Source: Sphingomonas bisphenolicum
Lineage (GTDB): Bacteria; Pseudomonadota; Alphaproteobacteria; Sphingomonadales; Sphingomonadaceae
Assembly (NCBI RefSeq): GCF_024349785.1
Contig: NZ_AP018822.1
Coordinates: 48,112 to 112,111, forward strand
Direction of reading: 5' to 3'
Length of the DNA stretch: 64,000 bases
The notes under the pieces are model-generated. The model saw nothing but the letters and a program-made list of their open reading frames with translations. It did not search any database and was not told the DNA's origin. Below are positions 4,658 to 32,634 of the stretch, in pieces; position 1 is the first letter of the stretch, and each line of letters opens with the position of its first letter. The translations under genes were made by a program, and so were the position numbers.

Positions 4658-4670
4658 CGGCGCGGCGCCG

Positions 4671-6447: not shown

Positions 6448-6488
6448 CAGCCGCGCCCCTTCTTCAGGGGCGCGGCTGTCTTCATTTT
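6448..6488 (+). terminator. Rho-independent terminator of the par operon
   Basis: A 13-bp perfect stem (CAGCCGCGCCCCT / AGGGGCGCGGCTG) with a TCTTC loop is followed by TCTTCATTTT. It is well placed 78 bp after the parB stop. Confidence 0.75.
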
Positions 6489-6577
6489 CGCGGATCGGGC
6501 GGATTGGATCGCTCGGAAATATTCTGCTTTTTTGTAGATGTCAGATTGGATGAGATACCTGGCTTGAGGACGGGCGG

Positions 6578-6595
6578 AGTCTGCTTGAGCAGACT
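6578..6595. promoter_or_regulatory. 18-bp palindrome, copy 2
   Basis: Identical to the site at 4321-4338 (AGTCTGCTTGAGCAGACT) and again followed by AT. It lies 71 bp before the start of the MobC-like gene and 207 bp after the parB stop. Sharing this site between the par and mob units implies one DNA-binding protein acts at both. Confidence 0.6.
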
Positions 6596-6666
6596 ATAAG
6601 ACGAGTGGTTTTAGGTGAGGGCCGGATAGGCTTGGCGCCGTCATTGTTAAACAATAGCAATGGGGT

Positions 6667-8329: not shown

Positions 8330-8359
8330 AGATGTGGATAAGTTGGGGTAGGGCGTACT

Positions 8360-16240: not shown

Positions 16241-17210
16241 AATACACCTCCTCGACTTCGAATTTTCCGGCGCGCTTGCGGGTCTGGACGACGACGTCGA
16301 CCAACATGTGCAACAACCCACGGATATCGTCGCGGGCCAGATCGCGCCCGCCTTCGGACTCCTTCACCAGCAAGGTGAGCTGCTCGAAAGCGCCCATCGC
16401 TGAACCGGCATGGACGGTTGTAATCGAGCCGGGGTGACCCGAGTTCACGTTGCGCAGATAGAAAAAGGCAGTCCCGTCGCGCAGTTCTTGCAACAGAATG
16501 CGATCGGGCCGCATGCGCAGCGCACTTTCAAGCAGCTGCTTCGGGCCGACCTTGGCCAGGCCCTGTCGCTCGCTCGAATAGACCATATGCACGACGTTGC
16601 GGTGTTCGACGACAAGCTCGCGCGTATCCTCGATCGTGAGCAGCCGCTCGTCGGGCGGGATCAACTGGATCAGCGCCTTGGCAAAAGTGGTCTTGCCCGA
16701 GCCGGTCGCGCCGCTCACCAGGATGTTTTTGCGGGCGGCGACGGCGGTCCTGAAGAAGGACGGCCAGTCACCGGCGTCGCGCTGTGCCACCAATTGAGCA
16801 TCGACTTCGCCAAGACCGCACGCCGCAGAGCGAGTTCCCTTGAACAGGCCGGTCTGCTCGAGCTGATCGATCGCCAGATTGACCCGGGAAGGCTTGCGCA
16901 CCGTGAAGGACGGCGCGCCATTCGGGGTCACCGAGGGTATGACGATCTGGCACCGCTCTCCGCCCGGCAAGATCGTCGAGCAGATCGGGGTCTCGGCATT
17001 GACGTCCTGCCGGGTGAAGCTTGCGGCCGCGACGGCCAGCGTCGCCAGCCAATCGCTGTCGAGTTCGGCGACGCTATGCCAATGCCAACCGCGATGATCC
17101 TCGATGCCGACTTCGCCGGGCTTGTTGATCACCAGTTCGGTGACCTCGACCGGCTCCAGCAGCGGCAGGATCGGCGCGAGATAATGGCGCAGGACAGCGG
17201 TATCGCTCAT
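16206..17210 (-). CDS. virB11: VirB11 secretion ATPase
   Basis: A hexameric traffic ATPase at the cytoplasmic base of the VirB channel, switching between pilus building and substrate transfer. The N-terminal domain has VTELVINKPGEVGIE. Walker A GATGSGKTTFAKAL is at 167-180, the Asp box LLTIEDTRELVV follows, then LESALRMRPDRILLQELRD (Walker B/His region) and SGHPGSITTVHAGS. 334 residues, full length. Its start lies 2 bp from the virB10 stop. Confidence 0.95.
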   Translation of the reverse strand: MSDTAVLRHYLAPILPLLEPVEVTELVINKPGEVGIEDHRGWHWHSVAELDSDWLATLAVAAASFTRQDVNAETPICSTILPGGERCQIVIPSVTPNGAPSFTVRKPSRVNLAIDQLEQTGLFKGTRSAACGLGEVDAQLVAQRDAGDWPSFFRTAVAARKNILVSGATGSGKTTFAKALIQLIPPDERLLTIEDTRELVVEHRNVVHMVYSSERQGLAKVGPKQLLESALRMRPDRILLQELRDGTAFFYLRNVNSGHPGSITTVHAGSAMGAFEQLTLLVKESEGGRDLARDDIRGLLHMLVDVVVQTRKRAGKFEVEEVYFDPPVGRATAH

Positions 17211-17212
17211 CC

Positions 17213-18448
17213 TCAGCGCCGCAACTCGAGATTGTAGACGTCGGCGAAGTTGAAGTCCTTGGCGACGAAGATCCCGACCTCCTCGCCCTGGTTTTTCTTC
17301 AGCACCGGTCGGATATTGATGCTGTTCTGGAGTGCAATGCTCGCCCCCTCGCTCGGGGTCCGGGTCGTATTATTGAAGTTGTTGCTGCCACCTGAAACGG
17401 ACTGCCCGGCGATATAAGCGGCGTCGTCGACCAGCGAGAGCAGCAACGCGCTACCGAAGCGCGCCCAGAAGAAGGTGTCCACGGACCCGGCGATGCCGGC
17501 GCGGCCAAGGGCGTCCGACCCCGGCGAAGCCAGGTCGATGCGCACGCCCTGCGGCGTGACGGCCCGCGTCCACAACACGAACAGGCGGTTCTGCCCTTGC
17601 TGGATGCCGCCATGATATTCGCCGAGGACTTTGGTGCCCTTTTCCATGAGCACGACACGGCCATTCTCCGAATAGACGTCGCGCGGAATCAGGCACGAGG
17701 TGTAACCGGGCTGCGCAGAATTCATCGCTGTCTGGAGGATGCACGGGATCAGCGTGCCGGCGGTGACGAGATAATTGCGGTTGGGCAGCATCGAGGCCCG
17801 TGCCTCGCCGACCGCCGAACTCTGTCGAAGCGCGTCGAGCGCATTGGGTGCGCCGCGGGCGGCCGTATCGTTAGCACCATCGCCGCCGTCCGGACTGGCG
17901 GTGCCGCTACCTGCGCCACTTCCACCGCCCGATGGCTGAAGCGCATCGCGCCCTCCATAGGCGATCAATGTCGATCGCCGTGCCTGGTCGGCCAGGTTCT
18001 GCCGCGTATTCTGCGGCGCGCCTGCCGGCGCTGCGCCCGGTTGCATGGCAGGAACGATCTGTCCGTCAGGGCCAACGACCTGCGTGCCAGGTGGAGGATT
18101 GATGACGGGTGCGTTGGGATCTGCGGCGAGAGCGCCAAGCGGCTTGGGTTTCGCCGCGACGGCATCATACGCGACGGTCTCGCGCGCTGCCAGATCGGGG
18201 CGTTTGGCCATCGACTCCGGTTTGCCCATCAGGCTGCCGGCATTGTTGGTGCTTGGCCCCGAGTTGACCCACAAGATGCCGAGAACCATCGCCGTTCCCG
18301 CGAAAATCAGGGCGGTGTTCCGCTTTGCCGGTGTCATCCCACCGATCGGATCGATGCCGCGCTCGCGGATGATTTCGTCGCGTTCAGGTGTTGGATCGCC
18401 TTGCGGGCGACGAGGGGCCTCGGCCGCAGACTCGTCCATCGCGCTCAC
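17213..18448 (-). CDS. virB10: VirB10 energy-sensing channel protein
   Basis: VirB10 spans both membranes and opens the outer-membrane gate. The 411-residue product has a short cytoplasmic N-terminus, one transmembrane helix near 46-61 (TALIFAGTAMVLGILW), a long Pro/Gly-rich periplasmic linker with a glycine-serine run near 175, and the conserved C-terminal beta-barrel domain (YLVTAGTLIPCILQTAMNS, GYTSCLIPRDVYSENGRVVLMEKGTKVLGEY). ATGA overlap with virB9. Confidence 0.95.
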   Translation of the reverse strand: MSAMDESAAEAPRRPQGDPTPERDEIIRERGIDPIGGMTPAKRNTALIFAGTAMVLGILWVNSGPSTNNAGSLMGKPESMAKRPDLAARETVAYDAVAAKPKPLGALAADPNAPVINPPPGTQVVGPDGQIVPAMQPGAAPAGAPQNTRQNLADQARRSTLIAYGGRDALQPSGGGSGAGSGTASPDGGDGANDTAARGAPNALDALRQSSAVGEARASMLPNRNYLVTAGTLIPCILQTAMNSAQPGYTSCLIPRDVYSENGRVVLMEKGTKVLGEYHGGIQQGQNRLFVLWTRAVTPQGVRIDLASPGSDALGRAGIAGSVDTFFWARFGSALLLSLVDDAAYIAGQSVSGGSNNFNNTTRTPSEGASIALQNSINIRPVLKKNQGEEVGIFVAKDFNFADVYNLELRR

Positions 18449-19302
18449 TCCTTCGGGTCTTGTATGGTGCGTTCGACATGCGGCGACGCTGTGTTGGTGC
18501 CGTGATCGACGCCGTAAGGTGTTGGCGCGAGATTATAGATGCACAGCACCTCCCGGTTCCGGCGCAGACGCAGTTGAGCCGCCACAGCGTGAACGACCAC
18601 GAACTCGTCCCGGACATCGAATGGGACCAACGTCTCCGAGCCGTCCGGGCGCACGAGATAAATCGCCGGGATTTCGTGGTTGCCGGGAAAACGCAGGACC
18701 GTGAACTGGCCGTTGTCGGAGATCTCCGACGGCTGAAGATCGCTCGCACCCTGGACCTTGTAGTTCAGATTACGCGGTCCATCGATGACGCCGTGGTCAA
18801 GGGCTCCCCGAACGGCGCTCGCCTGCAATGCCGCGACGCGCTGTGCTTCCTGCGTCGCGCGCATGCGAGCGGCACGATCAGCTTCATCGCGCGGGTAGCG
18901 AAACCGAACCTGGAAGAATGTATCACGGCTCCCGCTGCCGATGGGTCCTCGGCGCGCCGTCAGTTCGAAGGCGTAGTTGCGCAGCTCACCCCCGCGATTG
19001 GTCGTGACGATAAGGTTCGTTGGTCCCGCCCGCTCACGGGGTTTCAGGAACAGAATGTGACCGGCAACCGCCACTTCCCAGGAGACGGTGTCGCCGAGCG
19101 CGACATGTTCAATCGTCTCGTCGGCGCCAAGCACGACCTGGGTCGCTGTCCGGAATGTGCCGACGATCCGGTAGACCTGGGTCTCCTGATATTCGACGAA
19201 CTTCACGCGTGGATCCGCCGGCCCACCGCGCGGCGTGTCCTCCGCGAGCGCGGGTGTCGCCATAATGGCGATAAGGCTCGCTAATGGAAGAAGGCGGTTC
19301 AC
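18445..19302 (-). CDS. virB9: VirB9 outer-membrane channel component
   Basis: A periplasmic/outer-membrane protein of the core complex. From the GTG at 19302 the product has a signal peptide (residues 1-20, ending PALA), the N-terminal domain (VYRIVGTFRTATQVVLGADETIEHVALGDTVSWEVAVAGHILFLKP), and the C-terminal VirB9 domain (NYKVQGASDLQPSEISDNGQFTVLRFPGNHEIPAIYLV). The GTG overlaps the virB8 stop by 4 bp, which I prefer to the extension to 19539. 285 aa. Confidence 0.94.
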   Translation of the reverse strand: MNRLLPLASLIAIMATPALAEDTPRGGPADPRVKFVEYQETQVYRIVGTFRTATQVVLGADETIEHVALGDTVSWEVAVAGHILFLKPRERAGPTNLIVTTNRGGELRNYAFELTARRGPIGSGSRDTFFQVRFRYPRDEADRAARMRATQEAQRVAALQASAVRGALDHGVIDGPRNLNYKVQGASDLQPSEISDNGQFTVLRFPGNHEIPAIYLVRPDGSETLVPFDVRDEFVVVHAVAAQLRLRRNREVLCIYNLAPTPYGVDHGTNTASPHVERTIQDPKE

Positions 19303-19988
19303 CGCACCACCTCGGGGTCCGCGCGGTAATTCTCGACCTGGAACCCCAATGGGTTGCGATAGCGGTCGCCCTCCGCCATCGGCGCGTTCGTGTACCGGAA
19401 GGTGACGGTCGCGATCCAGTCGCTGCTTTGCGTATCGGTGTCGGTCTGCACTGTCCGCGTGAAGCGGACGTTGGCAACACGATCGTTGATGAAGGCGATA
19501 TTGCGCACGCGGGCCTGGACGACCGCGCTCTTGCCCCACACGACCTGTGGGCTTGCGGCGTTGTTCGAGCTGAAAAACCGGCCCCAGCGTTGCTGCTCGC
19601 CTGGTTCGGACAGGATAGTGACGGCCCGGAAATTCTCTTCGGCCGCCGCCGGCAACCAGCTTTCCCGGGTCCGGACATATTGCGCGAGGAAAAATTTCGT
19701 GACCGCCTCATCATAGCGCATCGGCTTCTGGGTGACGGTGGTCTGCACGTCGACGGCGCCCGTCGTCTGATTGACGCGAATGATGTACGGCATGACCGTC
19801 TTCAGCGGCGCAAGGCCCGCGAGTGCGAAACCCTCCGCGGTCGCGGCAAGCAGGCCCAGGCCAGCTACCACCCAGGCGATGCGTTCGGACCGCAACGATT
19901 TACGCTGGCGGTCCTGATCCCAGGATCGGGCATGGCCGAAATAGAGTTCGGCGTCCTTGGCCGGCACGCCTTCGGTCTGATTCCGCAT
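19299..19988 (-). CDS. virB8: VirB8 assembly factor
   Basis: A bitopic inner-membrane scaffold of the channel: short cytoplasmic N-terminus, transmembrane helix near residues 38-60 (IAWVVAGLGLLAATAEGFALAGL), and an NTF2-like periplasmic domain containing TVTQKPMRYDEAVTKFFLAQYVRTRESWLP and FRYTNAPMAEGDRYRNPLGFQV. I use the ATG at 19988, 3 bp after the upstream stop, rather than the TTG at 19997. Length is normal for the family. Confidence 0.93.
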   Translation of the reverse strand: MRNQTEGVPAKDAELYFGHARSWDQDRQRKSLRSERIAWVVAGLGLLAATAEGFALAGLAPLKTVMPYIIRVNQTTGAVDVQTTVTQKPMRYDEAVTKFFLAQYVRTRESWLPAAAEENFRAVTILSEPGEQQRWGRFFSSNNAASPQVVWGKSAVVQARVRNIAFINDRVANVRFTRTVQTDTDTQSSDWIATVTFRYTNAPMAEGDRYRNPLGFQVENYRADPEVVR

Positions 19989-19990
19989 GA

Positions 19991-20302
19991 TCAGCAACTT
20001 CCATAGGTGCTGGGAGCTGCTCGCGCCGATGTCTTCTCGGACAAAGGAACGGGCGGGGGCGGTGTGCCGCGATCAGCTGGTTGCTTGATCTGTGGCACGG
20101 GTGGTGGGGCAGGGGGCACCACCACGGCGGGGATCGGCGAGCCCGGCAGTACGCTCCCATAGATGTTGACGTCGCGCAGGTGCTTGCCATTGCAGACGGG
20201 CAGTTTCTTCGGCCCGGAAGCCCCTTGGGCGAGTGTCGGGAGCAGGGCGATGACGACCGCCGATCGTCGGAGCGCACGGACTATCGTGGACGGCCTCGTC
20301 AT
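19991..20302 (-). CDS. Small secreted proline-rich protein in the VirB7 position
   Basis: A 103-residue protein with a signal peptide (RALRRSAVVIALLPTLAQGA), a short conserved block KLPVCNGKHLRDVNIYGSVLPG, then a proline-rich stretch (VVPPAPPPVPQIKQP) and two cysteines. No lipobox is obvious, so it is not a classical VirB7 lipoprotein, but its place between virB6 and virB8 and its size suggest a substitute. AGGAAGGAA precedes the ATG at 20302 and decides the start. Function unproven. Confidence 0.6.
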   Translation of the reverse strand: MTRPSTIVRALRRSAVVIALLPTLAQGASGPKKLPVCNGKHLRDVNIYGSVLPGSPIPAVVVPPAPPPVPQIKQPADRGTPPPPVPLSEKTSARAAPSTYGSC

Positions 20303-20316
20303 TGGGTGTTCCTTCC

Positions 20317-21261
20317 TCATGCGCGGCTCACCGAACCGCCGCGCTGAGCGGCCCGTTCGAGATTGCGACTGTTGCGAGCGATACGGCGTTGCTGGAACGG
20401 TGCCGCCATGGACCCCCACGCAGAGCCGGCGAAGGCGCCGATGCCGGCGGACGCGCCCCCGGCAATGCCGGTCGCGATTGACGGCGCCTGGAAAAAGAAG
20501 ATCGTTCCCAAGAAAATATAAACGGCGAACAGCACCGCACCCAAGGCGGCGTCTCCAACACCTTCGGATGCGGTAATCGCGGTAGCACCAAGGTCAGTGA
20601 TCAAGGCCGTGATCGCGATGATCACTGCCATCAGCACAATGAAGTTGAAGGCCTGCCCGAGCCAGCCGTGAAATAGCCTTCGCGTGGTCTCGAAGAGCGA
20701 AAGGGCGATGAAGATCGGTCCGAGCGCGATGATGATGGCCAGTGCCACCTTCGCGAAAACGGTGATGGAGAAGCCGATCGCCGCAGATAGTCCGGCAAGC
20801 GCTTTAAGACCGAGGCTCAGGACGTACAAAACGAGCTTGTATGGGTTGATATCGCTGTAGGTTGCCGCCTCGGTCTCGATCCTCGCGATAATAACGTCAC
20901 ACTGGCTGAAATAGTCGTCGAACACGTTGCCAACGCTCGTGACGGTATGCCCCGCCAACGCCTGCGAGATCGCATCAGGCATGCCGTGAAACAGGGGATT
21001 AGTTACCCACTCCGTGTAGGCGACCGTGGTGGCCGCAACGTAGAGCAAACACAGTTTCACCATTCGGTAGACAAGCTCGCCCCACGGCTCGCTGACGATG
21101 CCGCGCATCACCATGTAGCCGAACAGCGCAATATAGATGACCAAACCAAGCGCGAGTGGGCCGCGCACAACCTCGATGACATTGTTCAAGCGCTCGTTAA
21201 GGAACATGTCGAGCTTGCCGTCGATGTTGGTGTAGAGAGTGGTGAAGAGCCCGTCGGCCAT
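20317..21261 (-). CDS. virB6: VirB6/TrbL polytopic membrane protein
   Basis: A 314-residue inner-membrane channel subunit with an N-terminal amphipathic region (LFTTLYTNIDGKLDMFLNERLNNVIEVV) and about six transmembrane segments, e.g. LALGLVIYIALFGYMVMRG, LSAAIGFSITVFAKVALAIIIALGPIFIALSLF, FNFIVLMAVIIAITALITDLG. The GPIFIALSLFETTRRLFHGWL block is characteristic of VirB6. The C-terminus is basic. It overlaps no gene but lies 15 bp from eexN. Confidence 0.92.
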   Translation of the reverse strand: MADGLFTTLYTNIDGKLDMFLNERLNNVIEVVRGPLALGLVIYIALFGYMVMRGIVSEPWGELVYRMVKLCLLYVAATTVAYTEWVTNPLFHGMPDAISQALAGHTVTSVGNVFDDYFSQCDVIIARIETEAATYSDINPYKLVLYVLSLGLKALAGLSAAIGFSITVFAKVALAIIIALGPIFIALSLFETTRRLFHGWLGQAFNFIVLMAVIIAITALITDLGATAITASEGVGDAALGAVLFAVYIFLGTIFFFQAPSIATGIAGGASAGIGAFAGSAWGSMAAPFQQRRIARNSRNLERAAQRGGSVSRA

Positions 21262-21276: not shown

Positions 21277-21504
21277 TCAATGGGCCGGCGACAGCGAGCG
21301 CAGCTTTTGATCAAGCGTCTTCACACTCTCTGCGTTCGAGCATTCCTGTGCGTCGCGATGCGTGCCATCGGCGCACGCCTTCAGGACTTCCGCGAGCTCT
21401 TGGGGGTGGGCTTTGAGGTAATCCTTTCCGCGCGCAGGGGGTTGGCACGCGACCAGAAATGCCGGGACCAAAAGCGCGAATGCCTTGAAGATGGTTGCCT
21501 TCAT
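21277..21504 (-). CDS. EexN-like entry-exclusion lipoprotein
   Basis: A 75-residue lipoprotein with a classic lipobox (LVAC, Cys20) after a hydrophobic signal. The mature part KDYLKAHPQELAEVLKACADGTHRDAQECSNAESV matches the EexN family, which blocks incoming transfer of related plasmids when placed in VirB operons. Its ATG overlaps the stop of the broken virB5 by 4 bp. If exclusion is still expressed while the pilus genes are broken, the plasmid would still repel relatives. Confidence 0.82.
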   Translation of the reverse strand: MKATIFKAFALLVPAFLVACQPPARGKDYLKAHPQELAEVLKACADGTHRDAQECSNAESVKTLDQKLRSLSPAH

Positions 21505-21576
21505 TGATGGAGGCTCCCAAGCTTTCTTGCTAAGATTTGCTCGCTCTCCTGCTGCGATCGAATCCGCTGCTCCGCC
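21501..21576 (-). pseudogene. virB5: virB5, C-terminal fragment (cut by IS66 element)
   Basis: On the - strand the bases just outside the IS66 left end encode AEQRIRSQQESEQILARKLGSLHQ and then TGA at 21501-21503. Joined to the N-terminal fragment at 24080-24722 after removing one target duplication, the frame reads MRQQAEQRIRSQQESE without a break. This shows the gene was whole before the insertion. The bases 21569-21576 are the target duplication. Confidence 0.9.
21569..21576. repeat. IS66 target-site duplication, left copy
   Basis: GCTCCGCC, identical to 24080-24087. An 8-bp duplication is typical of the IS66 family. Confidence 0.92.
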
Positions 21577-21652
21577 GTAAGCGGGGTCTGACGGCCGCCT
21601 TGCATGCCGGGCATTCGCCGGGATGATTGCCGCTCTTTGAGCGGGGTGGCGG

Positions 21653-22096
21653 GTGTCGGACGAGATCGGGGATTCAGCGAGCTGTGCAGCGACTACTCAT
21701 ACGAGCGGTCGTATGAGTAGTCGGATAGAAGTCGTTAGCCGGGTGTCGGGCCGGCGGCGCTGGACGGTGGATCAGAAGCTGGCCGTGCTGCGGGATGCAT
21801 TTGGCCCGGAGGGCTGCGTGCGCGCGGCCTGTGAACGCCATGATGTCGGCAGCGGATCGATCTACACGTGGCGGCGACAGGCGATGTCCGGTGAACTGGC
21901 CGGGGTACGCAAGCCGATCGAGCCCGTTTTTGCGGAGGTGCAGATCAGCGAGCAGCCAGCCTTGCCCGCCCCAACGCTCGCGGCGCGCAGCGGCAGCGTG
22001 ATTGGCATCGAGCTGCCGTCAGGTATCAGGGTGAGCGTGGATGCCACGGTCGATGCCGATGCCCTGTCGCGGGTGATCGGTGTCCTGACACGATGA
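21653..22096 (+). CDS. tnpA: IS66 TnpA (orf1) accessory protein
   Basis: This is the small DNA-binding protein needed for IS66 transposition. The helix-turn-helix is RRRWTVDQKLAVLRDAFGPEGCVRAACERHDVGSGSIYTWRRQAMSG. Two starts compete: a GTG at 21653 with GGCGGG upstream (147 aa), and an ATG at 21713 that lies inside a perfect 12-bp dyad (21693-21720). The latter would make expression depend on opening the hairpin. The 3' end overlaps tnpB by 4 bp. Confidence 0.85.
   Translation: MSDEIGDSASCAATTHTSGRMSSRIEVVSRVSGRRRWTVDQKLAVLRDAFGPEGCVRAACERHDVGSGSIYTWRRQAMSGELAGVRKPIEPVFAEVQISEQPALPAPTLAARSGSVIGIELPSGIRVSVDATVDADALSRVIGVLTR
21693..21720 (+). promoter_or_regulatory. Perfect 12-bp dyad over the tnpA start
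   Basis: CTACTCATACGA and TCGTATGAGTAG flank a GCGG loop. The alternative tnpA ATG (21713) lies in the right arm. As RNA it could sequester the start codon; as DNA it could be a TnpA operator. Confidence 0.5.
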
Positions 22097-22440
22097 TCCC
22101 GCTGCCACCATCGACGCGGATATTCCTGGCCTGCGGCGCGACAGATATGCGCAAGGGTTTTGACGGCCTTGCCGTGATGACGCAGCAGGTCCTGGAGCAA
22201 AGCCCGCATTCCGGCGCGCTATTCGTCTTTCGCGGCAAGCGCGGCGATCTGGTGAAGCTGCTCTGGTATGACGGCCAGGGCATGTGCCTGTTCTCCAAGC
22301 GGATGGACCGAGGGCGCTTTGTGTGGCCGTCGACGAAGATGGGGTCGGTGGTGATGACCGCAGCCCAGCTTTCGATGCTATTGGAAGGCATCGACTGGCG
22401 GCGACCGGAACGCACTTTCACCCCTTCATTGGCGGGGTAA
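22093..22440 (+). CDS. tnpB: IS66 TnpB (orf2)
   Basis: A 115-residue IS66 Orf2-family protein: TRIFLACGATDMRKGFDGLAVMTQQVL, GALFVFRGKRGDLVKLLWYDGQGMCLFSKRM, GRFVWP. It is essential for IS66 movement, though its biochemical role is unknown. Full length, ATGA overlap with tnpA. Confidence 0.93.
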   Translation: MIPLPPSTRIFLACGATDMRKGFDGLAVMTQQVLEQSPHSGALFVFRGKRGDLVKLLWYDGQGMCLFSKRMDRGRFVWPSTKMGSVVMTAAQLSMLLEGIDWRRPERTFTPSLAG

Positions 22441-22500
22441 AGCGCCCATTTTCTGGCACTTTTATTAGCATTTTTGCTGCTGATCTGCTATGTAAATGCA

Positions 22501-24054
22501 GTGTCGGACCCAGGCCTTTCCACCCCTGATAAAGACGCTCGGATCGCCGAGCTTGAAGCCGCATTGGCCGCCGCCCATGCCGATATTTCCGCCCGCGACA
22601 TCCTGATCGACACGCTGCGCGTGCAGATCGCGCGCCTCAAGCGGATGCAGTTCGGCAAGTCGTCTGAGAAGCTCGATACCCAGATTGCTCAGCTTGAGCT
22701 GGCCCTTGAAGAGCTCGAAGGCGAGGCCATCGTCGCCGCCGCGCGTCGAGGCGATCCGGTAGCCGTCGATCGGCCATCACCGGTTCGGACGCTGCCAGCT
22801 CATTTGCCGCGCGAGGAGCAGCGGATCGAGCCCGATCAGGGTAACTGCACCTGTCCCGACTGCGGCGGCGCGTTGCGGCCGCTGGGGCAGGATAGCGACG
22901 AGATGCTCGATGCCGTGCCGGTGCAGTGGCGCGTCGTTCGGACCATCCGCCCCAAGTATAGCTGCCGGTCCTGCGAGAAGATCGTGCAGGCGCCCGCGCC
23001 GGTAAAGGCGATAGCGCGGGGCAAGGCGACCTTCGGCACGCTGGCCCATGTCGTCGTCTCCAAGTTCGACCATCATCTGCCGCTTTACCGTCAGGCCGAG
23101 ATAATGGCCGCCCAAGGCATCGAGATCGACCGCTCGACGCTGGCAGGGTGGGTCGGGCAAGCATCCGTGCTGCTCGACCCGATCGTCAGTCGCATCCGCG
23201 AGGTCGGACTGACGGCTTCAAAGATTCACACCGACGATACGCCGGTCCCTATGCTCGATCCGGGACGTGGCAAGACGGCAACCGGCAGGCTCTGGGCCTA
23301 TGCCGTCGACGATCGCGGTTCTGGTGCGACCTCACCGCCGTTGGTCTGGTATGAGTTCACCACCGACCGGACAGGCGCACATCCCCAACGGCAGCTGGCC
23401 AGTTTCACCGGCTATCTTCAGGCGGACGGCTATGCCGGATACGACAAGCTCTACGACACCAACCGCGTCACCGAGGTCGCCTGCTGGGCGCATTTCCGCC
23501 GCAAGATATTCGACATCCACGCGACCAAGCCGACACCGCTCACCACTGATCTGCTGGAACGCATCGGCCAACTCTATGAGATCGAAGCAGAGGTTCGCGG
23601 CCATCAGCCTGATATCCGACGACGAAGCCGACAGGACCGCACCAAGCCATTGATCGACGAACTGCACGAGGCGCTCGACGATGCGCTGCGCCGTCTTTCG
23701 CCCAAGTCGGAGATGGCCAAGGCGATCGCTTATGGCCGCAAGCGCTGGGTCGCGCTCACGCGCTTCCTCGACGATGGCCGACTGGAGATTGATAACAACA
23801 TTGCGGAGCGCGCCATGCGCTGCGTGGCCCTGGGCCGCAAAAACTGGCTGTTTGCAGGATCAAAGGCGGGCGGTGATCAGGCCGCTGCCATCTACTCCAT
23901 CATCGAGACTGCCAAGCTCAATGGCCTCGAACCGCAGGCCTACATCGCCGATGTCATCGCCAAGATCGCTGGCGACTGGCCTGCCGCGCGCTGGGATGAA
24001 CTCATGCCTTGGAACTGGCAGCCAGATCAGCAACCGATCGCCGAAGCCGCCTGA
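22501..24054 (+). CDS. tnpC: IS66 transposase TnpC
   Basis: The DDE transposase of the element. After a coiled-coil LZ-like N-terminus (IAELEAALAAAHADISARDILIDTLRVQI) come the zinc finger (CTCPDCGGAL, CRSCEK), and the catalytic core with HTDDTPVPML (first Asp), FTGYLQADGYAGYDKLY (second Asp) and NNIAERAMRCVALGRKNWLFAGS (Glu region). The GTG at 22501 is the likely start; the frame extends to a TTG at 22474. About 517 residues, apparently functional. Confidence 0.93.
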   Translation: MSDPGLSTPDKDARIAELEAALAAAHADISARDILIDTLRVQIARLKRMQFGKSSEKLDTQIAQLELALEELEGEAIVAAARRGDPVAVDRPSPVRTLPAHLPREEQRIEPDQGNCTCPDCGGALRPLGQDSDEMLDAVPVQWRVVRTIRPKYSCRSCEKIVQAPAPVKAIARGKATFGTLAHVVVSKFDHHLPLYRQAEIMAAQGIEIDRSTLAGWVGQASVLLDPIVSRIREVGLTASKIHTDDTPVPMLDPGRGKTATGRLWAYAVDDRGSGATSPPLVWYEFTTDRTGAHPQRQLASFTGYLQADGYAGYDKLYDTNRVTEVACWAHFRRKIFDIHATKPTPLTTDLLERIGQLYEIEAEVRGHQPDIRRRSRQDRTKPLIDELHEALDDALRRLSPKSEMAKAIAYGRKRWVALTRFLDDGRLEIDNNIAERAMRCVALGRKNWLFAGSKAGGDQAAAIYSIIETAKLNGLEPQAYIADVIAKIAGDWPAARWDELMPWNWQPDQQPIAEAA

Positions 24055-24079
24055 TCTGCGGCCTCCAGCCCACGCTTAC

Positions 24080-24087
24080 GCTCCGCC
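24080..24087. repeat. IS66 target-site duplication, right copy
   Basis: GCTCCGCC, identical to 21569-21576. Confidence 0.92.
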
Positions 24088-24722
24088 TGCTGCCTCATTG
24101 TGAGCGCCTGAAGTTGCACTGCGTCGTTCTGGATATGAGCATTTTCCACGCCGACACGGGCTTGGATATCCATCACGTCCTTCGCGTCTGACGCGGTGTC
24201 GAGCGACGAGCGCAGTTCCTCGAGACCTGTCGTCCGCTGGGCGGTGACGCCATACGCTGCCTCGGCAATGGCCGCGTCGCGCGCCGCCATGTCACCATTT
24301 CGAGAGATGGAATCGCGGTTCGACCGCTCGAAAGCCGTCGCATCCGGGCGCAGTTCGGGAAGCTCGACGCGGTTGCTGATACGGATCCGATCTGCGGCGG
24401 TCCCAAGGCTACCGAGGCCCGTGGTGTCAGATGACATGAGGCGCTGAATATCCCGTGCTTCGCTCGGCAAGAGGTGGCGAACGGCATCGGTGTTCAGGGA
24501 CGACGCGATCTGGTTGACGTTCGTCAGCTTGTTGACGCTGTTGTAGAGCTCGGTCGCCTGCGAAATCTGCTGTTTGCCCTGCTCGATCATCGACAGGGTG
24601 TTCTTCACGGTCGAGAGCGTCTGCAGGAAGGTGCTGGAATCATAGACCGGGATGCCTTGCGCGAACGCCGGCATGGACATCGTCAGTCCGCTGACAATCG
24701 CGAGCGCTCGTAATGCTTTCAT
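24080..24722 (-). pseudogene. virB5: virB5, N-terminal fragment (cut by IS66 element)
   Basis: VirB5 is the minor pilus-tip subunit. The fragment from the ATG at 24722 (AAAGGATGAGG upstream) has a signal peptide (MKALRALAIVSGLTMSMPAFA), then a helical domain with SMIEQGKQQISQATELYNSVNKLTNVNQIASSLN and VQLQALTMRQQAE, where the IS66 end begins. As it stands the frame runs 14 codons into the IS and stops at 24027. The rebuilt protein would be 236 residues, a normal length. The start follows the virB4 stop by 4 bp. Confidence 0.9.
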
Positions 24723-24726
24723 GACC

Positions 24727-24926
24727 TCATCCTTTCCTTCTGGTGGTGGCTCGGCGGCGCTCGTGAAAGACGGGCAGCCAGTCGCTGGGATCGTCGCCAT
24801 GTTCGCGGCGAACCTGATCGAGGATTCCCACGGTCTCAGTTGTGCCCGAGAGGACGGCCAGCTCGTCGGACAGCCCGCCGAGATCGAGTTCCACGACGAT
24901 GGAATCGTGACCCTGCTTGACCAGAA
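24727..24926 (-). pseudogene. virB4: virB4, C-terminal fragment (cut by IS21 element)
   Basis: The - strand reads KQGHDSIVVELDLGGLSDELAV, then LSGTTETVGILDQV and a basic end RRRATTRRKG before TGA at 24727-24729. It is the normal C-terminus of the CagE/VirB4 family and continues in frame from the fragment ending at 27532 once the IS21 element and one copy of the duplication (24919-24926) are removed. Confidence 0.92.
24919..24926. repeat. IS21 target-site duplication, left copy
   Basis: GACCAGAA, identical to 27532-27539. Confidence 0.92.
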
Positions 24927-25017
24927 TGCGCATTTCGCGGAAGTTGGGCAGTGATTTCGCGCGATCTCGGGCACGCGTTTCACGGCATCGCGGGCAGCCA
25001 TTTCGCGCCCTCGGGCA
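24927..25017. repeat. IS21 left-end terminal repeats (four units)
   Basis: Four repeats with the core TTTCGCG...CGGGCA end at 24950, 24973, 24996 and 25017 (periods 23, 23, 21). They are inverted relative to the right-end set and probably bind IstA. Confidence 0.75.
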
Positions 25018-25041
25018 GGCTGGCCAACGGGTGTTATTGAG

Positions 25042-25806
25042 TCAGGGCTGAAGGCTTTGGTCAAGCAATTTCATGGTGCTCATCTTTTTTCGCATGCTGT
25101 CGCCGCTCAGGGTTAGGCGGTGAGCGTTGTGGACCAGGCGGTCGAGGATCGCATCTGCCAGGGTGGGATCGCCGATAACCTCGAACCATTGATCCACCGG
25201 AAGCTGACTGGTGACGATGGTGGAGCCCCGACCTTGTCGATCGTCGAGGATTTCCAGCAGATCGCGTCGCTCTGTTGCCGTCAGGACTGAGAGCCCCCAA
25301 TCATCAAGGATGAGCAGTTCCGTACGTTCGATGGCTTTGAGAACGCGGGCATGTCGTCCGTCGCCTTTGGCTATGGCCAACATCTGGAACAGGCGGGGCA
25401 CGCGATGATAGACAACCCGGCGACCATCACGGCAAGCTTTGTTGCCCAGTGCGCAGGCGATCCAGCTTTTGCCCAACCCTGTTGGCCCTGTGATCAGCAA
25501 ATTTTCGTGCCGGTTGATCCAGCTGCCATCGATCAGATGCGCCATCACCGCGACATCAATGCCGCGAGGGCTGCGCATGTCGATATCTTCAACACAGGCC
25601 GCGTGGCGCAGGGCGGCAAAACGTAACCGCGTAGCCAGCTTCTTGGCGTCACGCTCTGCAGCTTCGCGATCGACGAGCAATCCCAGCCTTTCTTCAAAGC
25701 TGAGGCTTTCAAACGTCGCGCCAACGCGCCGCTGTTCATGAAGTGCCTTTGCCATACCGGAAAGCCCGATAGCCTCCAGACGGTCGCAAGTGGGATGGGA
25801 CAGCAA
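25042..25806 (-). CDS. istB: IstB, IS21 helper ATPase
   Basis: A DnaC-like AAA+ protein that selects target DNA and activates IstA. Walker A ITGPTGLGKSWIACAL spans about 105-120, Walker B TELLILDDWGLSVL follows, then a sensor segment STIVTSQLPVDQWFEVIGD and ADAILDRLVHNAHRLTLSG. 254 residues, complete. It starts 15 bp after the istA stop. Confidence 0.94.
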   Translation of the reverse strand: MLSHPTCDRLEAIGLSGMAKALHEQRRVGATFESLSFEERLGLLVDREAAERDAKKLATRLRFAALRHAACVEDIDMRSPRGIDVAVMAHLIDGSWINRHENLLITGPTGLGKSWIACALGNKACRDGRRVVYHRVPRLFQMLAIAKGDGRHARVLKAIERTELLILDDWGLSVLTATERRDLLEILDDRQGRGSTIVTSQLPVDQWFEVIGDPTLADAILDRLVHNAHRLTLSGDSMRKKMSTMKLLDQSLQP

Positions 25807-25821
25807 CAGTAATCTCCTCTG

Positions 25822-27411
25822 TCAGTGGTAATAGTTCTGGCCGCGGATGTTGCGGTGTTGCAGCGGCAGCTCTTCGGGGTCTGGTTCCAGGAAAGCCTGA
25901 TCAAGACCGGTCTTCAGGATCGAGCGGATGGATGCGACCGATCGGGCCTTGATGGCGACGGCCCGGCGGCATGCGGCATCGATCCGCCGGGGCTCGAAGC
26001 TTTTGGCCAACGACAGCACGCCCAGGCAGGTTCGGAAGCCTTGTTCGGGGTGCGGCCTGTCCTGCATTACGATATCGCAAAACGCAGCCACGGAGGGCCC
26101 CAGCTTTGCGGCGCTGTTCAGAATGCGCGTCGCGGACCATTCGGCATAGCGGCGGTGCGCCGACGGCATATGCTCGGCCGCCGTGACATGACTACGCCGT
26201 CCGGGATCGCGCAGATGGCTAGCGACGCGTTTGCCACGATGGAAGATTTCTACCGTGGCATGAGTAACCCGCGCGTCCACGTCCTGCCGGATCAAGTTGA
26301 ACGGCACAGAATACCAGCAGCGATCTACCTCGATGTGATAATCGGGGGCGACACGGGCCCGTTTCCAGCGCGCAAAGACATAGGGATCGGCGGGCAGCGG
26401 CTGCAAGTTCGGACGATCCAATGTGGCGAACAAATCAGCGCGACTGGCGCCATAGTCACGCATGACGCGCATGTTCAATTCGTCGAGCAATGGCCGGATG
26501 GCAGTGTTCAGCTCGGCTAGTGAGAAGAACCTGCGATTGCGCAACCTTGCCAGGATCCAGCGCTGGGCGACTTGCACGGCTACCTCGACTTTGGCCTTGT
26601 CTTTTGGCTTTCGCACGCGCGCCGGCAGGATTGCTGTGCCGTAGTACCCGGCCATTTCAGCATAGGTCCGGTTCAAGCCGGGATCATAGCGGTCCGGCTT
26701 AATCACAGCCGATTTCAGGTTGTCGGGTACGACCACCTTCGGCACACCGCCCAGATAGGCAAACATCCCCACATGGGCCGCAATCCAATCCTCCAGCCCT
26801 TCGCTGGCAACAGCCAAGGCGTAGGTATAGCTTGAGGCCCCCATCGCTGCGACGAACAGCTTGGCCGCTTTCACCTCACCGGTTGCCGGGTCAACGATCT
26901 CGATCGTGTCGCCGGAGAAGTCGACAAACACCTTTTCGCCGCCCACATGCGTTTGCCGCATGCTCGGCCGTACACGGCCTTTCCACGCGTCAAAGTGGGT
27001 GCAAAACCATGTGTAGCCAAATCCGTGGGGGTGCTGTGCCCGGTATTCCTGCCACAGCAACATGCGCGTGACCCCGCGCTTGCGCAGTTCCTGATCAATT
27101 ACGGCCCAATCCGGAACTGGCCGGTCTGGATCGGCCACGTCTGAAGCGTTCGGGAATAGCAGCAGCTCAAGGCTGTCATCATCCAGCCCCTCCGGCAGGG
27201 GCCAGCCCAGTCCAGCATCCCGGGCGCGCCGCAGGTACGTGCCCACACTCCCTTTCCCAAGCCCAAGCGAGGACGCAATCGCCCGCTCACTCAGCCCTTG
27301 GGCAAACTTCAATCGCAAAACGTCGCGAATACGGCGCATGGTCAAACGTCCTGTCGGCATTCCAATCCTCCTGTGTTTCAGGAGGCGGAGTAACTGCAGT
27401 TCGTTGGTCAT
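25822..27411 (-). CDS. istA: IstA, IS21 transposase
   Basis: A 529-residue DDE integrase-type transposase. It has an N-terminal helix-turn-helix (FAQGLSERAIASSLGLGKGSVGTYLRRAR) and a catalytic core with VFVDFSGDTIEI (first Asp), KVVVPDNLKSAV (second Asp) and RKPKDKAKVEVAVQVAQRW (Glu). A C-terminal beta-barrel region (DYHIEVDRCWYSVPFNLI) follows. The ATG at 27411 lies 3 bp from the innermost right-end repeat, so IstA may control its own promoter by binding the repeats. Confidence 0.94.
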   Translation of the reverse strand: MTNELQLLRLLKHRRIGMPTGRLTMRRIRDVLRLKFAQGLSERAIASSLGLGKGSVGTYLRRARDAGLGWPLPEGLDDDSLELLLFPNASDVADPDRPVPDWAVIDQELRKRGVTRMLLWQEYRAQHPHGFGYTWFCTHFDAWKGRVRPSMRQTHVGGEKVFVDFSGDTIEIVDPATGEVKAAKLFVAAMGASSYTYALAVASEGLEDWIAAHVGMFAYLGGVPKVVVPDNLKSAVIKPDRYDPGLNRTYAEMAGYYGTAILPARVRKPKDKAKVEVAVQVAQRWILARLRNRRFFSLAELNTAIRPLLDELNMRVMRDYGASRADLFATLDRPNLQPLPADPYVFARWKRARVAPDYHIEVDRCWYSVPFNLIRQDVDARVTHATVEIFHRGKRVASHLRDPGRRSHVTAAEHMPSAHRRYAEWSATRILNSAAKLGPSVAAFCDIVMQDRPHPEQGFRTCLGVLSLAKSFEPRRIDAACRRAVAIKARSVASIRSILKTGLDQAFLEPDPEELPLQHRNIRGQNYYH

Positions 27412-27414
27412 GCC

Positions 27415-27531
27415 TGCCCGCGATCGCGCGAAATCAGTGCCCGCGATCGTGTGAAATAGGTGCCCGGCTTCCCGTGAAATCGCTGCCCGCGATCAGATGA
27501 AATCAGTGCCCGCGATCACGCGAAACGCGCA
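27415..27531. repeat. IS21 right-end terminal repeats (five units)
   Basis: Five consecutive 23-bp units begin at 27415, 27438, 27461, 27484 and 27507, each starting TGCCCG and containing GAAA near the end. The last unit runs into the IS end. Confidence 0.82.
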
Positions 27532-27539
27532 GACCAGAA
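27532..27539. repeat. IS21 target-site duplication, right copy
   Basis: GACCAGAA, identical to 24919-24926. Confidence 0.92.
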
Positions 27540-29757
27540 AGCGCCGGCTTTCGGGGATCAGATCGTTTCTGATGAGTTTGAACTCGGCGCGGGTGAGGCC
27601 AAGCCCATCGATATAATCGACCTCCCGGCCATGCGGGTTGGGCAAGAGGATCTTGGTGGCGACCTGCTCCATGATGCTATGCGAGATGTCCGAGCGCAGC
27701 GCGTCGGCCGGGCTTTGCGTCCCGAAGACCAGAAACGCATTCTGCTTCCGGTATGTCTTGAGGCCATCCTGCGCGAAGGCGCGGAAGGCATCATCGCCCA
27801 GCGCCTTCCAGAACTCGTCGATATCGATTACGAGCCGGCGGCCATCGAGCAGGGCATCGATCCGGTGGAACATGTACATCATCAGCGGCGTGCGGATCTC
27901 GGGATTGTCGAGGAAATCCGTCATGTCGAAACCGATGAACCTGGCCTCGAGCGTCAACTCGTCGCGGTCATTGTCGAACACCCAGCCAAGCGCTCCGCCC
28001 CGTGACCATTTCTCAAGCCGTGCCCCGATACCTTCCGGATCACGTTGTCCGAGCAATTGGCGTAGCGCGAGGATGGACCGTTCTTCCGGGGGAAGGCGCC
28101 CGATCGAGAGGATGCCCTCGTCGATCATCCGCTCCTGCGTGACGCCGAGCTGGATGCCCGAGGGGGTCACCAGATGCCGGATCAGCCTGCCGAGGAAGAC
28201 GATATTGCCCGGGGTCTGCTCGAGCGCGCGGAGCGGAGCGAAGCCTGTCGGCACGCCGTTACGCAGCGCCAGATACGTGCCACCGGATGACCGTACATAG
28301 ATTTCGGCGCCTCGGTCCTTGTCGATGAAGATCTGCTGCGCGCCGGTTTTCTCGAGCTGCGCCATCAGGAAATTCTGGACGACAGTCTTGCCGCCTCCCG
28401 ACGGACCGATGATCAGCGTATGGCCGAGATCGTTCACATGAAAATTGAAGTAGAAGGGGGACTGAGCCGCGGTCTTCATCAAAGCGATGGCAGCGCCCCA
28501 ATGATTGCCCTCCGCCTTGCCGGCAGGAAAGGTGTGGAAGGGGGAGAGAGCGGCGAAATTGCGCGACGTGATCGCCGCCGGCCGCGCACGCCACGCAAAG
28601 TTGCCCGGAAGCTGCGACCAGAAAGCGGCTTCCAGCGCCGGGCCTTCCCGCGCCGAGACCAGACCGGCATCGGCGAGCGCAGCCCGTGCCGTCGAAAGAT
28701 TTTCGGCTAGGCGTTTCTGATTTTCACCGAAGACCGCGAGCGAGAAATGATGCTCGCCCAGGACAAAGCGATTGCTCTGCAGATCGTCGGCCGCGTCCGC
28801 CAACTCAAGCGCCTGACTTGCAGCGGCATCCTCGGTCGATGCCATCTGGTTCTGGCGCCGCCGCAGGCGCTCGGAGGCCCGCGCCTTGCCCATGAACGCA
28901 AAGGACTGCGTGACAACGAACGCGAAGTCCTGGCTAAGGAGCGCGTTCATCTGGCCGGGTCGCGTCATGGCCGGATATTCGCGGATACCGAACAGACCGA
29001 CAAAGCGGCTCGTATCATGCGCGCGCACCTCGACCGTCTCGCGGCCGAAGATCACGCGTTCCCCATAGATGGCGGAACCGAGATGGCCGCGGACCAGCGG
29101 CACTCTGCCGGCGCGGCCCATCATTACCAGCTCGAGCACCTCGAGCGGTTGGGAGAACATCAGGCCGTTATGCTCGTAGAGGTGCAGACGCCGAGGCCGG
29201 CAGCGTGCGAGGAGCTTCTCGATATCGCGCGCCTTGTCCTCGAAGCGTGCGAGCTCATCCTCGTCCACCTCGGTCCCTTCCTTGCGTGCCGACGCCAGAC
29301 GGCGAAGCAGCACGCCGGTGCGGTCGGCCGATCCCACGGACGGGCGCATGATCAGGGTGAGGTACAGTTCGTTGACAAACATCCGCTTGGCGGTGACGCG
29401 CGCACGATATTTTGCATCGAGGTCGGCCGCAAAAGCCGAGCGGAACTCGCCTTCGGGATAGTCCGTGATCGGCCGGCGAACGATGTGGGTCCAGATCGCG
29501 AGGCGGTCGTCGGCAATATTGCGCAGCGTACCGTTGAGCTTCTCGTGCCAGTCGTTGAGATGGACAGGGTCGGCGGTTTCAAACGCCATGCCTTCGAGCT
29601 TGAACATCATCATGAGGTCGCGCCCGTCGAGCGCGATGACGTTCTCGTCGATATGGCGCGCATAGGGCAGGTAACGCGCCGGGTCGGCCTCTTGTTTGAG
29701 GATCCGCCATGGCGTGCGGGCTGTCGCTCCGCTCAATGCGCTGGCCCGGCTAGCCAC
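27532..29757 (-). pseudogene. virB4: virB4 secretion ATPase, N-terminal 92% (cut by IS21 element)
   Basis: VirB4 is the essential ATPase for pilus assembly and transfer. This part carries the N-terminal CagE/TrbE domain (IDENVIALDGRDLMMMFKLEGM, LNGTLRNIADDRLAIWTHIVRR), Walker A LIIGPSGGGKTVVQNFL near residue 450, and Walker B RRLVIDIDEFWKAL, ending at IPESRRFLV. The frame then reads into the IS (CAFRVIAGTDFI) and stops at 27493, so the last 64 residues are lost. Removing the IS gives an 805-residue protein of normal length. I start at the GTG at 29757, which overlaps virB3 by 8 bp; the frame is open to 29898. Confidence 0.9.
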
Positions 29758-30085
29758 GTGCGAAGCCCGGGCGCTTCGCCCCGTCGATCGGCAGGGGAGA
29801 GTAGGAGCTGCCGCCCCACCAGCCGCGGTTGCGGCAGCGCGCCTTGGTCGTCGTCCACAGCCACAGCAGTCGAAACGCGTTGGCGTCGTGCCGGACAATC
29901 AGTCGGGCAATCGTCAGAAACGCACCGGCCAATGCGAAAGCGTAGAGCGGGTTGCCGGTGATGATGAGGGTCAGGCACGCTGCCAGCGCGATCGGCAGCG
30001 ATGCCTCGATCGGTACGCCCAACCACATCGTTGGTCGGGTCACGGCCAGGAAGAGTGTCTCTTCCCTAAGCTTTTCGTCGTCCAT
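29750..30085 (-). CDS. virB3: VirB3 inner-membrane protein
   Basis: A 111-residue protein with MDDEKLREETLFLAVTRPTMWLGVPIEASLPI, the VirB3 start pattern, and two transmembrane helices (about 25-60). It works with VirB4 and VirB8 at the inner-membrane complex. Start at the ATG 30085, 10 bp after the virB2 stop. The longer frame to 30160 overlaps virB2. Confidence 0.9.
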   Translation of the reverse strand: MDDEKLREETLFLAVTRPTMWLGVPIEASLPIALAACLTLIITGNPLYAFALAGAFLTIARLIVRHDANAFRLLWLWTTTKARCRNRGWWGGSSYSPLPIDGAKRPGFARG

Positions 30086-30095: not shown

Positions 30096-30437
30096 TCACG
30101 CGCCGCCGGTGATGGTATCGACGATCCACTGCGCGCTGAACACGATGAAGATACCGACAATGACCGTCACGAGGAGACCGAGGCTGGCACGGCCCGTGAA
30201 GAACATGAAGCCGACGATGACGACCGCGATCACCGCGATCGTCTTGGCAAATGTGCCGGTCAGCCAGGTCTTGATATTCTCGGCCATCGACGTGACGCCA
30301 TCGGCCGCCTGGGCATGCGCGGGGTCGCTCAGCAGCATCGAAACCAGGATGGCGGTGGCGATGAGCGCCAGCGTCTGGACGAAAGCGCGGCGACGTGGCG
30401 GGAGCCAGATCGATATGGTCGAAGCGGGAATTGTCAT
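30096..30437 (-). CDS. virB2: VirB2 major pilin
   Basis: A 113-residue pilin precursor with a long signal (residues 1-43, ending AHAQA) and two hydrophobic helices in the mature part (AKTIAVIAVVIVGFMFFTG and LGLLVTVIVGIFIVFSAQWIVDTI) separated by a short polar loop. This is the normal T-pilin layout. ATGA overlap with virB1. Confidence 0.92.
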   Translation of the reverse strand: MTIPASTISIWLPPRRRAFVQTLALIATAILVSMLLSDPAHAQAADGVTSMAENIKTWLTGTFAKTIAVIAVVIVGFMFFTGRASLGLLVTVIVGIFIVFSAQWIVDTITGGA

Positions 30438-31117
30438 TCGGTCGGTCCTTCTCTCGATGCCGGCGTCCCGTCACCAAACACCATCATCGAGGCGGTTTGG
30501 GCGCCTGCGGAAATGTCCCAGGACCGCGGTGCTTTCACCGCCGTCTGCACAATGCGAGGCTCCTGGATTGGCGTTTCGGATGCGGGTATTGGAGGGGTGG
30601 ACCTGGCCGAGCCTGCGCCGGTTGGCGCCAATCCCCTGATCGCGGGAATAATGACCGCAGAGCTCGCATAGACTCTCGCCACATAGCCGTTGCCAAAGCC
30701 ACGGGCCTGACTTCCGGTATTGTACATCGAGAGAGCAACGGAGATCGCGCGATCGGACGAACCCTGGGTGCGCGCCGCGTCAAGAAAGTTGCTCGACAGG
30801 ACCCGCGCTGCTGCGGCGAGATTGCGACAGGGATCGAATGTGTCCTCGACCGAGAGACCCAGCCATCGAAGATTGGCGCTGTTGATCTGCCCGAGGCCGA
30901 GGTCGATATTATATCCCTTGGCGATCAACGATCGGGCGATCCGGGCGGCCGCCGCAGGCGTCGCGGGTCTTTCGGGTCGGATGCCGCGGGCGTTTACGCC
31001 GATGGCCAATGTGTCGAACTTGCTTTCGGTATGCACGACGGAAACCAGTGTTTCCGGCGCGACCGATGGCGCGCATTGCTGCGCGAGGGCAACGACGCTG
31101 GCCAGTTGCAGGATCAT
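30434..31117 (-). CDS. virB1: VirB1-like lytic transglycosylase
   Basis: This periplasmic muramidase opens peptidoglycan for channel assembly. The SLT fold is seen in VSVVHTESKFDTLAIGVN (catalytic Glu31), YNIDLGLGQINSANLRWLGLS and the later AISVALSMYNTGSQARGFGNGYVARVY. A proline-rich C-terminal tail of about 60 residues follows, as in many VirB1 proteins. The N-terminal hydrophobic stretch LQLASVVALAQQ is short for a signal peptide. 227 aa. Confidence 0.9.
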   Translation of the reverse strand: MILQLASVVALAQQCAPSVAPETLVSVVHTESKFDTLAIGVNARGIRPERPATPAAAARIARSLIAKGYNIDLGLGQINSANLRWLGLSVEDTFDPCRNLAAAARVLSSNFLDAARTQGSSDRAISVALSMYNTGSQARGFGNGYVARVYASSAVIIPAIRGLAPTGAGSARSTPPIPASETPIQEPRIVQTAVKAPRSWDISAGAQTASMMVFGDGTPASREGPTE

Positions 31118-31716: not shown

Positions 31717-32475
31717 CTAGACGAGCGCGTCGATGTTCAGATGTCCGTCTCGCACGGCGCGAAGCACGAGCTGGGTCCGACGACGCACGCCGTATCGCCG
31801 GCGTGCACCTTCGACATATTCATGAACAGTATCGCGGCTCAACCCCAGTATCTGTCCGATCTCCCAGTCGCTCTTGCCCTGTGCCACCAGATCAATGCAG
31901 TCGATCTGGCGCGGGCTGAGCGCTATCGGCACGTTTGCCAGTTCATCTGGACCGAGAAGGGTTCGAGCCTGGTCGAACGCAACGGTGCCAATCAATCGGG
32001 CGGAGAGAAGGTCCGGGCTTGAAATATTGTCATCGCCCTGACGCGCTATGGTGAACATCGCGTCGGGCTCGTCGTGCATCCTGATCGGCATGGTGAACCC
32101 AGATGCCAGTCCATGTGCGCGACCCCGTTCAAGGATCGACCGCTGGCGAGCATTGGGCGCGATATAATCGCCGATCTGATCCCAGGTGAGCCCGGAGACG
32201 GTTTTGACGCAAGCGGCGTGAACCGGATCCTCAAGATAGAGACGTGACTCCAGGATTTCCTCGATCCAACGCACCGGATAGGTGGTTATCAGCAGGGCTT
32301 TGCGGGTGGTCCGCTTCAAGTCGACATTGTGCACCAATGCGAACCAACGGAATCCGAACTGGCGCACAATCGCATCAAGCAAGGATTTGAGCTGATCGAG
32401 CGTTGTCGCCTGCCGGCATTCTGCTTCGAATGCGGTGATATCGCCCAAGCGGCCGGCATCTTCGAGACTGCTCAT
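31717..32475 (-). CDS. LuxR-family regulator with autoinducer-binding domain
   Basis: A TraR/LuxR-type transcription factor of 252 residues. The ligand domain shows TTYPVRWIEEILESRLYLEDPVHAAC and GLTWDQI. The Trp, Asp-Pro and second Trp of acyl-homoserine-lactone receptors are kept, but the Tyr four residues after the first Trp is Ile, so ligand choice may differ. The GerE helix-turn-helix is SPRQIDCIDLVAQGKSDWEIGQILGLSRDTVHEYVEGARRRYGV. No luxI-like synthase is in the window. It lies directly upstream of the virB genes and likely regulates them. I use the ATG at 32475; 32493 is possible. Confidence 0.85.
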   Translation of the reverse strand: MSSLEDAGRLGDITAFEAECRQATTLDQLKSLLDAIVRQFGFRWFALVHNVDLKRTTRKALLITTYPVRWIEEILESRLYLEDPVHAACVKTVSGLTWDQIGDYIAPNARQRSILERGRAHGLASGFTMPIRMHDEPDAMFTIARQGDDNISSPDLLSARLIGTVAFDQARTLLGPDELANVPIALSPRQIDCIDLVAQGKSDWEIGQILGLSRDTVHEYVEGARRRYGVRRRTQLVLRAVRDGHLNIDALV

Positions 32476-32477
32476 AG

Positions 32478-32492
32478 TGCGAACGATTCGCA
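32478..32492 (-). promoter_or_regulatory. Short dyad at the luxR start
   Basis: TGCGAA-CGA-TTCGCA sits directly upstream of the ATG at 32475. It may be an autoregulatory site but is only 6 bp per arm. Confidence 0.25.
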
Positions 32493-32634
32493 TTTTGTTT
32501 GCGGCTTCGTCCAGTCACCGTTCGGCGAAGCCATTGAAAAACAAGACCGGCTGCCTCCAGCACCCAACTCCCCGCAAGAAAAGCACAGGTCGTCTTTAAC
32601 ACGAGCCGACCGATGCGATGATGAAAGGGCGCGC

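Follow-up and report, generated by a model that had tools for sequence, protein, structure and literature searches.

The question raised by this locus is whether a conjugation operon that has received two insertion sequences (IS) still supports self-transfer of its plasmid, and when and from where those elements arrived. The window, i.e. the whole 64,000-nucleotide stretch of Sphingomonas bisphenolicum DNA analysed here (positions 48112-112111 of contig C6, NZ_AP018822.1, which is 112,111 bp long and belongs to a 5.21 Mb genome in six contigs), carries a VirB/VirD4 operon with an IS66-family element in virB5 and an IS21-family element in virB4. We consider it likely, with a probability of roughly 0.8, that two resident IS inserted themselves, independently and in recent times, into a complete and recently mobile operon, leaving a plasmid that is no longer self-transmissible and that could be mobilised. 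On the sequence evidence, the loss of self-transfer is probable and the plasmid may remain mobilisable.

IS66-family elements carry a tnpA-tnpB-tnpC gene set and produce 8-bp target duplications, and IS21-family elements carry istA and istB, have repeated terminal sequences and produce short duplications. The element at 21577-24079 has the gene set and 8-bp duplications of the IS66 family, and the element at 24927-27531 has the istA/istB pair, the terminal repeats and the short duplications of the IS21 family (Table 1). The boundaries and duplications given in an earlier note on this DNA proved exact, and the two octamers, GCTCCGCC and GACCAGAA, each occur once (at 5635-5642 and 4796-4803, respectively) at the empty sites of locus L004 (Sphingomonas immobilis CA1-15), the nearest relative and collinear with the window across both sites. 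That note also took the insertions to be independent, a reading that is upheld by the different families of the elements, their different duplications and the virB4 and virB5 sequence lying between them; a single composite event was rejected on the same grounds. Its description of the two genes as interrupted likewise stands, with the correction that both insertions lie near the 3′ ends and therefore truncate the genes rather than split them in the middle. The IS66 element is present in the genome in at least four identical full copies, including that of the window, plus one partial copy (40 of 149 candidates scored), and the IS21 element in at least seven identical full copies, again including that of the window, plus one partial copy (40 of 67 candidates scored). 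Duplications of 8 bp flank all four full IS66 copies and four of the seven full IS21 copies, the other three having 6-bp duplications as read from their flanks.

Table 1 Coordinates of the transfer genes, insertion sequences and associated features in the window
Feature	Coordinates	Strand	Remarks
MobC/NikA-like relaxosome protein	6667..7203	+	PF21983, 29.1 bits against a cut-off of 27
Relaxase (MobA/VirD2-like)	7196..8329	+	PF03432
virD4 coupling protein	14228..16321	-	PF02534
virB11 ATPase	16206..17210	-	PF00437; 100% identical to L004
virB10	17213..18448	-	PF03743
virB9	18445..19539	-	PF03524; longest open reading frame, true start may lie inside
virB8	19299..19997	-	PF04335
virB6	20317..21261	-	PF04610
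EexN-type entry-exclusion lipoprotein	21277..21504	-	NF033894 above cut-off; identical to L004
virB5 detached 3′ end with stop	21501..21576	-	Overlaps eexN start; found as a fragment at query 212-236
IS66 target duplication GCTCCGCC	21569-21576 (left), 24080-24087 (right)		Perfect 8 bp
IS66-family element near virB5 3′ end	21577..24079	+	Genes run against the operon; HTH_Tnp_1, TnpB_IS66, DDE_Tnp_IS66 (Pfam)
IS66 transposase genes	21653-22096, 22093-22440, 22474-24054	+	
virB5 5′ part	24080..24722	-	214/236 codons; Pfam T4SS PF07996, TIGR02791
virB4 detached 3′ part	24727..24918	-	63 codons plus stop, lying between IS21 and virB5; collinear with L004
IS21 target duplication GACCAGAA	24919-24926 (left), 27532-27539 (right)		Perfect 8 bp
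IS21-family element in virB4	24927..27531	-	Operon direction; IstB_IS21, Mu-transpos_C_2, rve (Pfam)
IS21 genes	istA-like 25822-27411, istB 25042-25806	-	
virB4 5′ part	27532..29757	-	742/805 codons; TIGR00929 matched to position 736/792
virB3	29750..30085	-	PF05101
virB2 pilin	30096..30437	-	PF04956
virB1-like lytic transglycosylase	30434..31117	-	Pfam SLT
LuxR-type regulator	31717..32493	-	Upstream of virB operon; PF03472 and PF00196

With the IS removed, window positions 11300-32334 and L004 mismatch at 4 of 15,932 aligned bases, and one of these mismatches may lie within five bases belonging to an IS. Identity falls to 96.0% around the relaxase (6207-8400), and because it is lower there than across the operon the two plasmids are, judging by these values, mosaics. 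For the hosts, a 5.9-kb unnamed stretch of C1, a 3.73-Mb contig assumed to be the chromosome (eight C1 open reading frames (ORFs) yielded only one family name at a strict cut-off), aligns to S. immobilis in three pieces at 72-78% identity. A near-identical operon set against such chromosomal divergence indicates that the operon passed very recently between distant hosts, and that both insertions are younger than the split between the window and L004 plasmids. These identities, together with the empty sites, bear out the recent decay that had been proposed. Among the 34 closest loci (L004-L037) the IS21 site is uninterrupted in all 32 that reach it, L011 and L027 stopping before the site and being left out of this count. 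Neither the IS66 element (40 of 103 candidates scored) nor the IS21 element (40 of 242 candidates scored) had a match in the S. immobilis assembly, a draft from which short repeat contigs may be missing; the same assembly does respond to another query, the C1 stretch. Resident elements are taken as the source because identical copies lie elsewhere in the S. bisphenolicum genome and none was found in S. immobilis.

How much each protein has lost differs in its likely consequences. The virB4 frame reads on through 12 codons of IS21 to a stop at 27493-27495, and the virB5 frame through about 17 codons of IS66; the remaining parts of both proteins are 100% identical to L004. The 63-residue VirB4 tail that is cut off here is covered to at least 80% in 69 of 69 relatives, and the VirB5 end in 72 of 72, these sets being drawn from 80 loci, of which 11 were without a VirB4 ORF and 8 without a VirB5 ORF meeting the selection (loci dropped ran off a contig end, were split or were not reached). 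Within the VirB4 tail, 26 of 63 positions match L004 in at least 90% of relatives, compared with 356 of 742 elsewhere in the protein, and 18 of 63 columns are invariant in an alignment of 21 sequences hand-picked from the relative loci. In an AlphaFold model of the L004 protein the cut falls inside predicted strand 739-744 and removes strand 747-752 together with helices 759-766, 769-782 and 786-804, a region with block values of 76-82 in the predicted local distance difference test (pLDDT) and of 52 for the last five residues. The C-terminal ATPase domain alone was used from this model, the N-terminal half being of low confidence (mean pLDDT 63.1, predicted template modelling score 0.54). The best matches of the model in the PDB are chains of R388 TrwK/VirB4, with a whole-chain TM-score of only about 0.5, which reflects the poor modelling of the N-terminal half. 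Full-length TrwK/VirB4 (PDB 7o41, 7o43, 8rtd) aligns to residues 65-847 of the 852-residue L004 ORF, tail included, and the window protein differs from it in being without the last 63 residues. Because this conserved and structured end of the ATPase domain is gone, the truncated VirB4 is very likely non-functional or badly impaired. Loss of the VirB5 end may matter less. The claim that both genes are inactivated is thus retained as very likely for VirB4 and is not carried over to VirB5, where 22 poorly conserved residues were lost. Removal of just these tails is not reported in the available portions of four papers on VirB4 and VirB5 (PMC4643968, PMC3297438, PMC13222520, PMC9259494).

Several observations weigh against the proposed loss of self-transfer and its history. 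The truncated VirB4 keeps its Walker A and B regions, conservation in the VirB5 tail is low, with 90% or more at 3 of 22 positions, and about 50% of RP4 trbE mutant clones retained some conjugation, according to PMC13222520. Together with the more than 90% of each protein that is kept (742 of 805 and 214 of 236 residues), these points fit an account in which the IS sit near the 3′ ends because insertions that disable the system have been purged, VirB4 and VirB5 work with IS-encoded tails and the plasmid continues to transfer. This we regard as very unlikely, given a VirB4 tail found in every relative and contributing a predicted ATPase-domain strand and three helices, and more than 5 kb of inserted DNA within the operon. 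The absence of the IS from S. immobilis also depends on a draft assembly and on the part of the candidates scored, and it could be that a share of the plasmid copies in the culture is uninterrupted. An effect of culture or assembly, with insertions that vary within the sequenced culture without having become fixed in nature, would suit their very young age (as seen in the complete identity of the remaining VirB4 and VirB5 to L004) and the identical IS copies elsewhere; since the contig is continuous, the duplications are clean and no uninterrupted copy is present in the assembly, we consider it unlikely.

The preferred reading proposes that the plasmid arrived uninterrupted and that resident IS66 and IS21 elements then jumped into virB5 and virB4. 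A truncated VirB4 without the end of its ATPase domain would be unable to power pilus assembly and transfer, and for this reason the plasmid would no longer transmit itself; the genes downstream may also be expressed less, given insertions of 2.6 kb and 2.5 kb. A promoter scan across both IS, with 0 sigma-70-like sites compared with 1.5 expected, is uninformative on downstream expression. With its relaxase, MobC-like protein and VirD4 intact, the plasmid could still move with the aid of a suitable helper.

The remainder of the operon was compared with family profiles and with L004. Pfam and NCBIfam profiles recognise VirB1-6, VirB8-11 and VirD4 in order, as expected of an MPF_T (VirB/VirD4) system, a label taken from the PLSDB typing of related plasmids; virB7 was not identified. 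The earlier note had called the operon otherwise complete, and 12 transfer proteins are indeed full length, aligning with L004 from end to end (MobC-like, relaxase, LPD7, VirD4, VirB11, VirB10, VirB9, VirB8, VirB6, EexN, VirB2 and VirB1), with VirB3 recognised by profile match alone. The relaxase, MobC-like protein and exclusion lipoprotein, which it had listed as kept, were all identified by profile. In a self-transmissible plasmid all mating-pair genes are complete, and here VirB4 is short of 63 of its 805 residues and VirB5 of 22 of its 236; a mobilisable plasmid is expected to have an intact relaxase gene and accessory protein, and both are intact here.

A second complete VirB5 (26 of 26 candidates scored) and a second close VirB4 (4 of 4 candidates scored) were not found in the assembly. 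The VirB4 family profile finds two further proteins, one on C1 (38-39% identity) and a TrbE on the 80-kb contig C3 (24%), and at these distances the C1 VirB set and the C3 Trb set were rejected as further complete VirB4/VirB5 copies of this type; neither set is taken to complement the damaged proteins. The C1 set consists of virB4, virB9, virB10 and virB11 (L103, 2213-15783) and lies close to a gene for an Rhs-type protein. C3 has a relaxase and Trb genes of its own, and its transfer set might act as a putative helper.

Inactivation of a VirB4-family ATPase by an IS is already documented, and the window plasmid is a further example from another plasmid family. As described in PMC13222520, RP4 evolved with phage PRD1 gained trbE mutations, including insertions of IS421 from the chromosome, and conjugation was impaired. 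The likeness lies in a chromosomal IS jumping into the gene of a VirB4-family ATPase and truncating it; the RP4 experiments applied phage selection and measured transfer (PMC13222520), whereas the present case concerns a different plasmid family and two insertions, as seen in sequence. Adaptive loss, in which a pilus-dependent phage or the cost of the pilus selected a knock-out of virB4 (or virB5) as in RP4 under PRD1, is on this parallel possible but rather unlikely. The gene and the type of event are the same, 24 of 182 public IncP TrbE proteins are truncated, and RP4 without phage showed no Tra2 mutation above 20% frequency, which points to phage more than cost in that system (all from PMC13222520). 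Nothing seen in the window hints at phage, although no dedicated search for pilus-dependent phages was made, and active IS elements account for both insertions without selection. Moreover, once one of the genes is dead a second insertion adds little; this speaks for selection having been relaxed in at least one of the two cases.

A VirB4-like match at an E value of 1e-100 or better occurs in 155 of 298 family genomes. Ten of the listed matches are at 80% identity or above; eight of these reach the last residue, one is a contig-edge fragment and, among those listed at this identity, only the VirB4 of this plasmid stops at 742, with at most three candidates scored per genome and the weakest matches unlisted, such that short close fragments may be missed. 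VirB4 genes that appear damaged in other ways were also observed in two relatives, one split into two frames (L062, 2853-5940) and one with an internal gap (L072, 5350-7644). In a plasmid collection, a 12.2-kb query matches 103 records, none of them aligning at any single place to as much as 80% of its length. Two of these plasmids, pTSSC1 of Sphingomonas sp. CL5.1 and pEP2 of Sphingobium sp. EP60837, share the same order of AbiEi, LPD7, virD4-to-virB1, EexN and LuxR genes, and are typed by PLSDB as conjugative, MOBP (pEP2 also MOBQ) and MPF_T. The annotation of these two plasmids shows virB4 (805 aa) and virB5 (236 aa) uninterrupted, unlike in the window plasmid, and the restored lengths of 805 and 236 codons given in the earlier note equal those of both these genes and the uninterrupted genes of L004.

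As to the setting of the operon, copA at the start of C6 and the copB gene at its end lie on the same strand, for which reason the contig is most simply read as probably a circular plasmid. Family profiles identify metal-resistance proteins on C6 (CopA, CopB, CopD, CusA/CzcA-type resistance-nodulation-division (RND) pumps and metal P-type ATPases), and scanning its proteins against profiles also revealed partition proteins, an AbiE pair, a Tn3-family transposase and the transfer genes; no drug-resistance family scored above the curated cut-off in an NCBIfam scan of 30 C6 proteins. C6 has two separate parA/parB-type partition loci (window 4431-6370 and L101 6230-8495), and this pairing suggests an old plasmid fusion. 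An AbiEi/AbiEii pair adjoins the transfer operon (window 11368-13031), with the AbiEi antitoxin annotated at the same place on pTSSC1 and pEP2, and beside the relaxase lies a gene (window 8360-10126) for a protein with a DUF2326 and an ABC-3C CTD10 domain, possibly a defence component. An acyl-homoserine lactone (AHL) synthase is annotated on pEP2, where luxI and a phytanoyl-CoA dioxygenase gene adjoin the operon. The genome of the window plasmid yielded no AHL synthase, either with the profile or with the pEP2 protein as query; the same profile recovers the annotated pEP2 synthase (compare L109, 15087-15716).

IS inactivation of transfer genes is a known process, of which this locus is a clear example. 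It shows a conjugative plasmid shortly after its transfer ATPase was damaged, and a near-identical uninterrupted region in a second species provides the natural counterpart for comparison. There is a small chance that the pilus was lost under selection by an as yet unrecognised pilus-dependent phage of sphingomonads; if this were true, natural truncation of virB4 by IS would point to such phages outside IncP plasmids as well. The natural plasmid pair makes the cost of conjugation, mobilisation by a helper and exposure to pilus-dependent phages testable.

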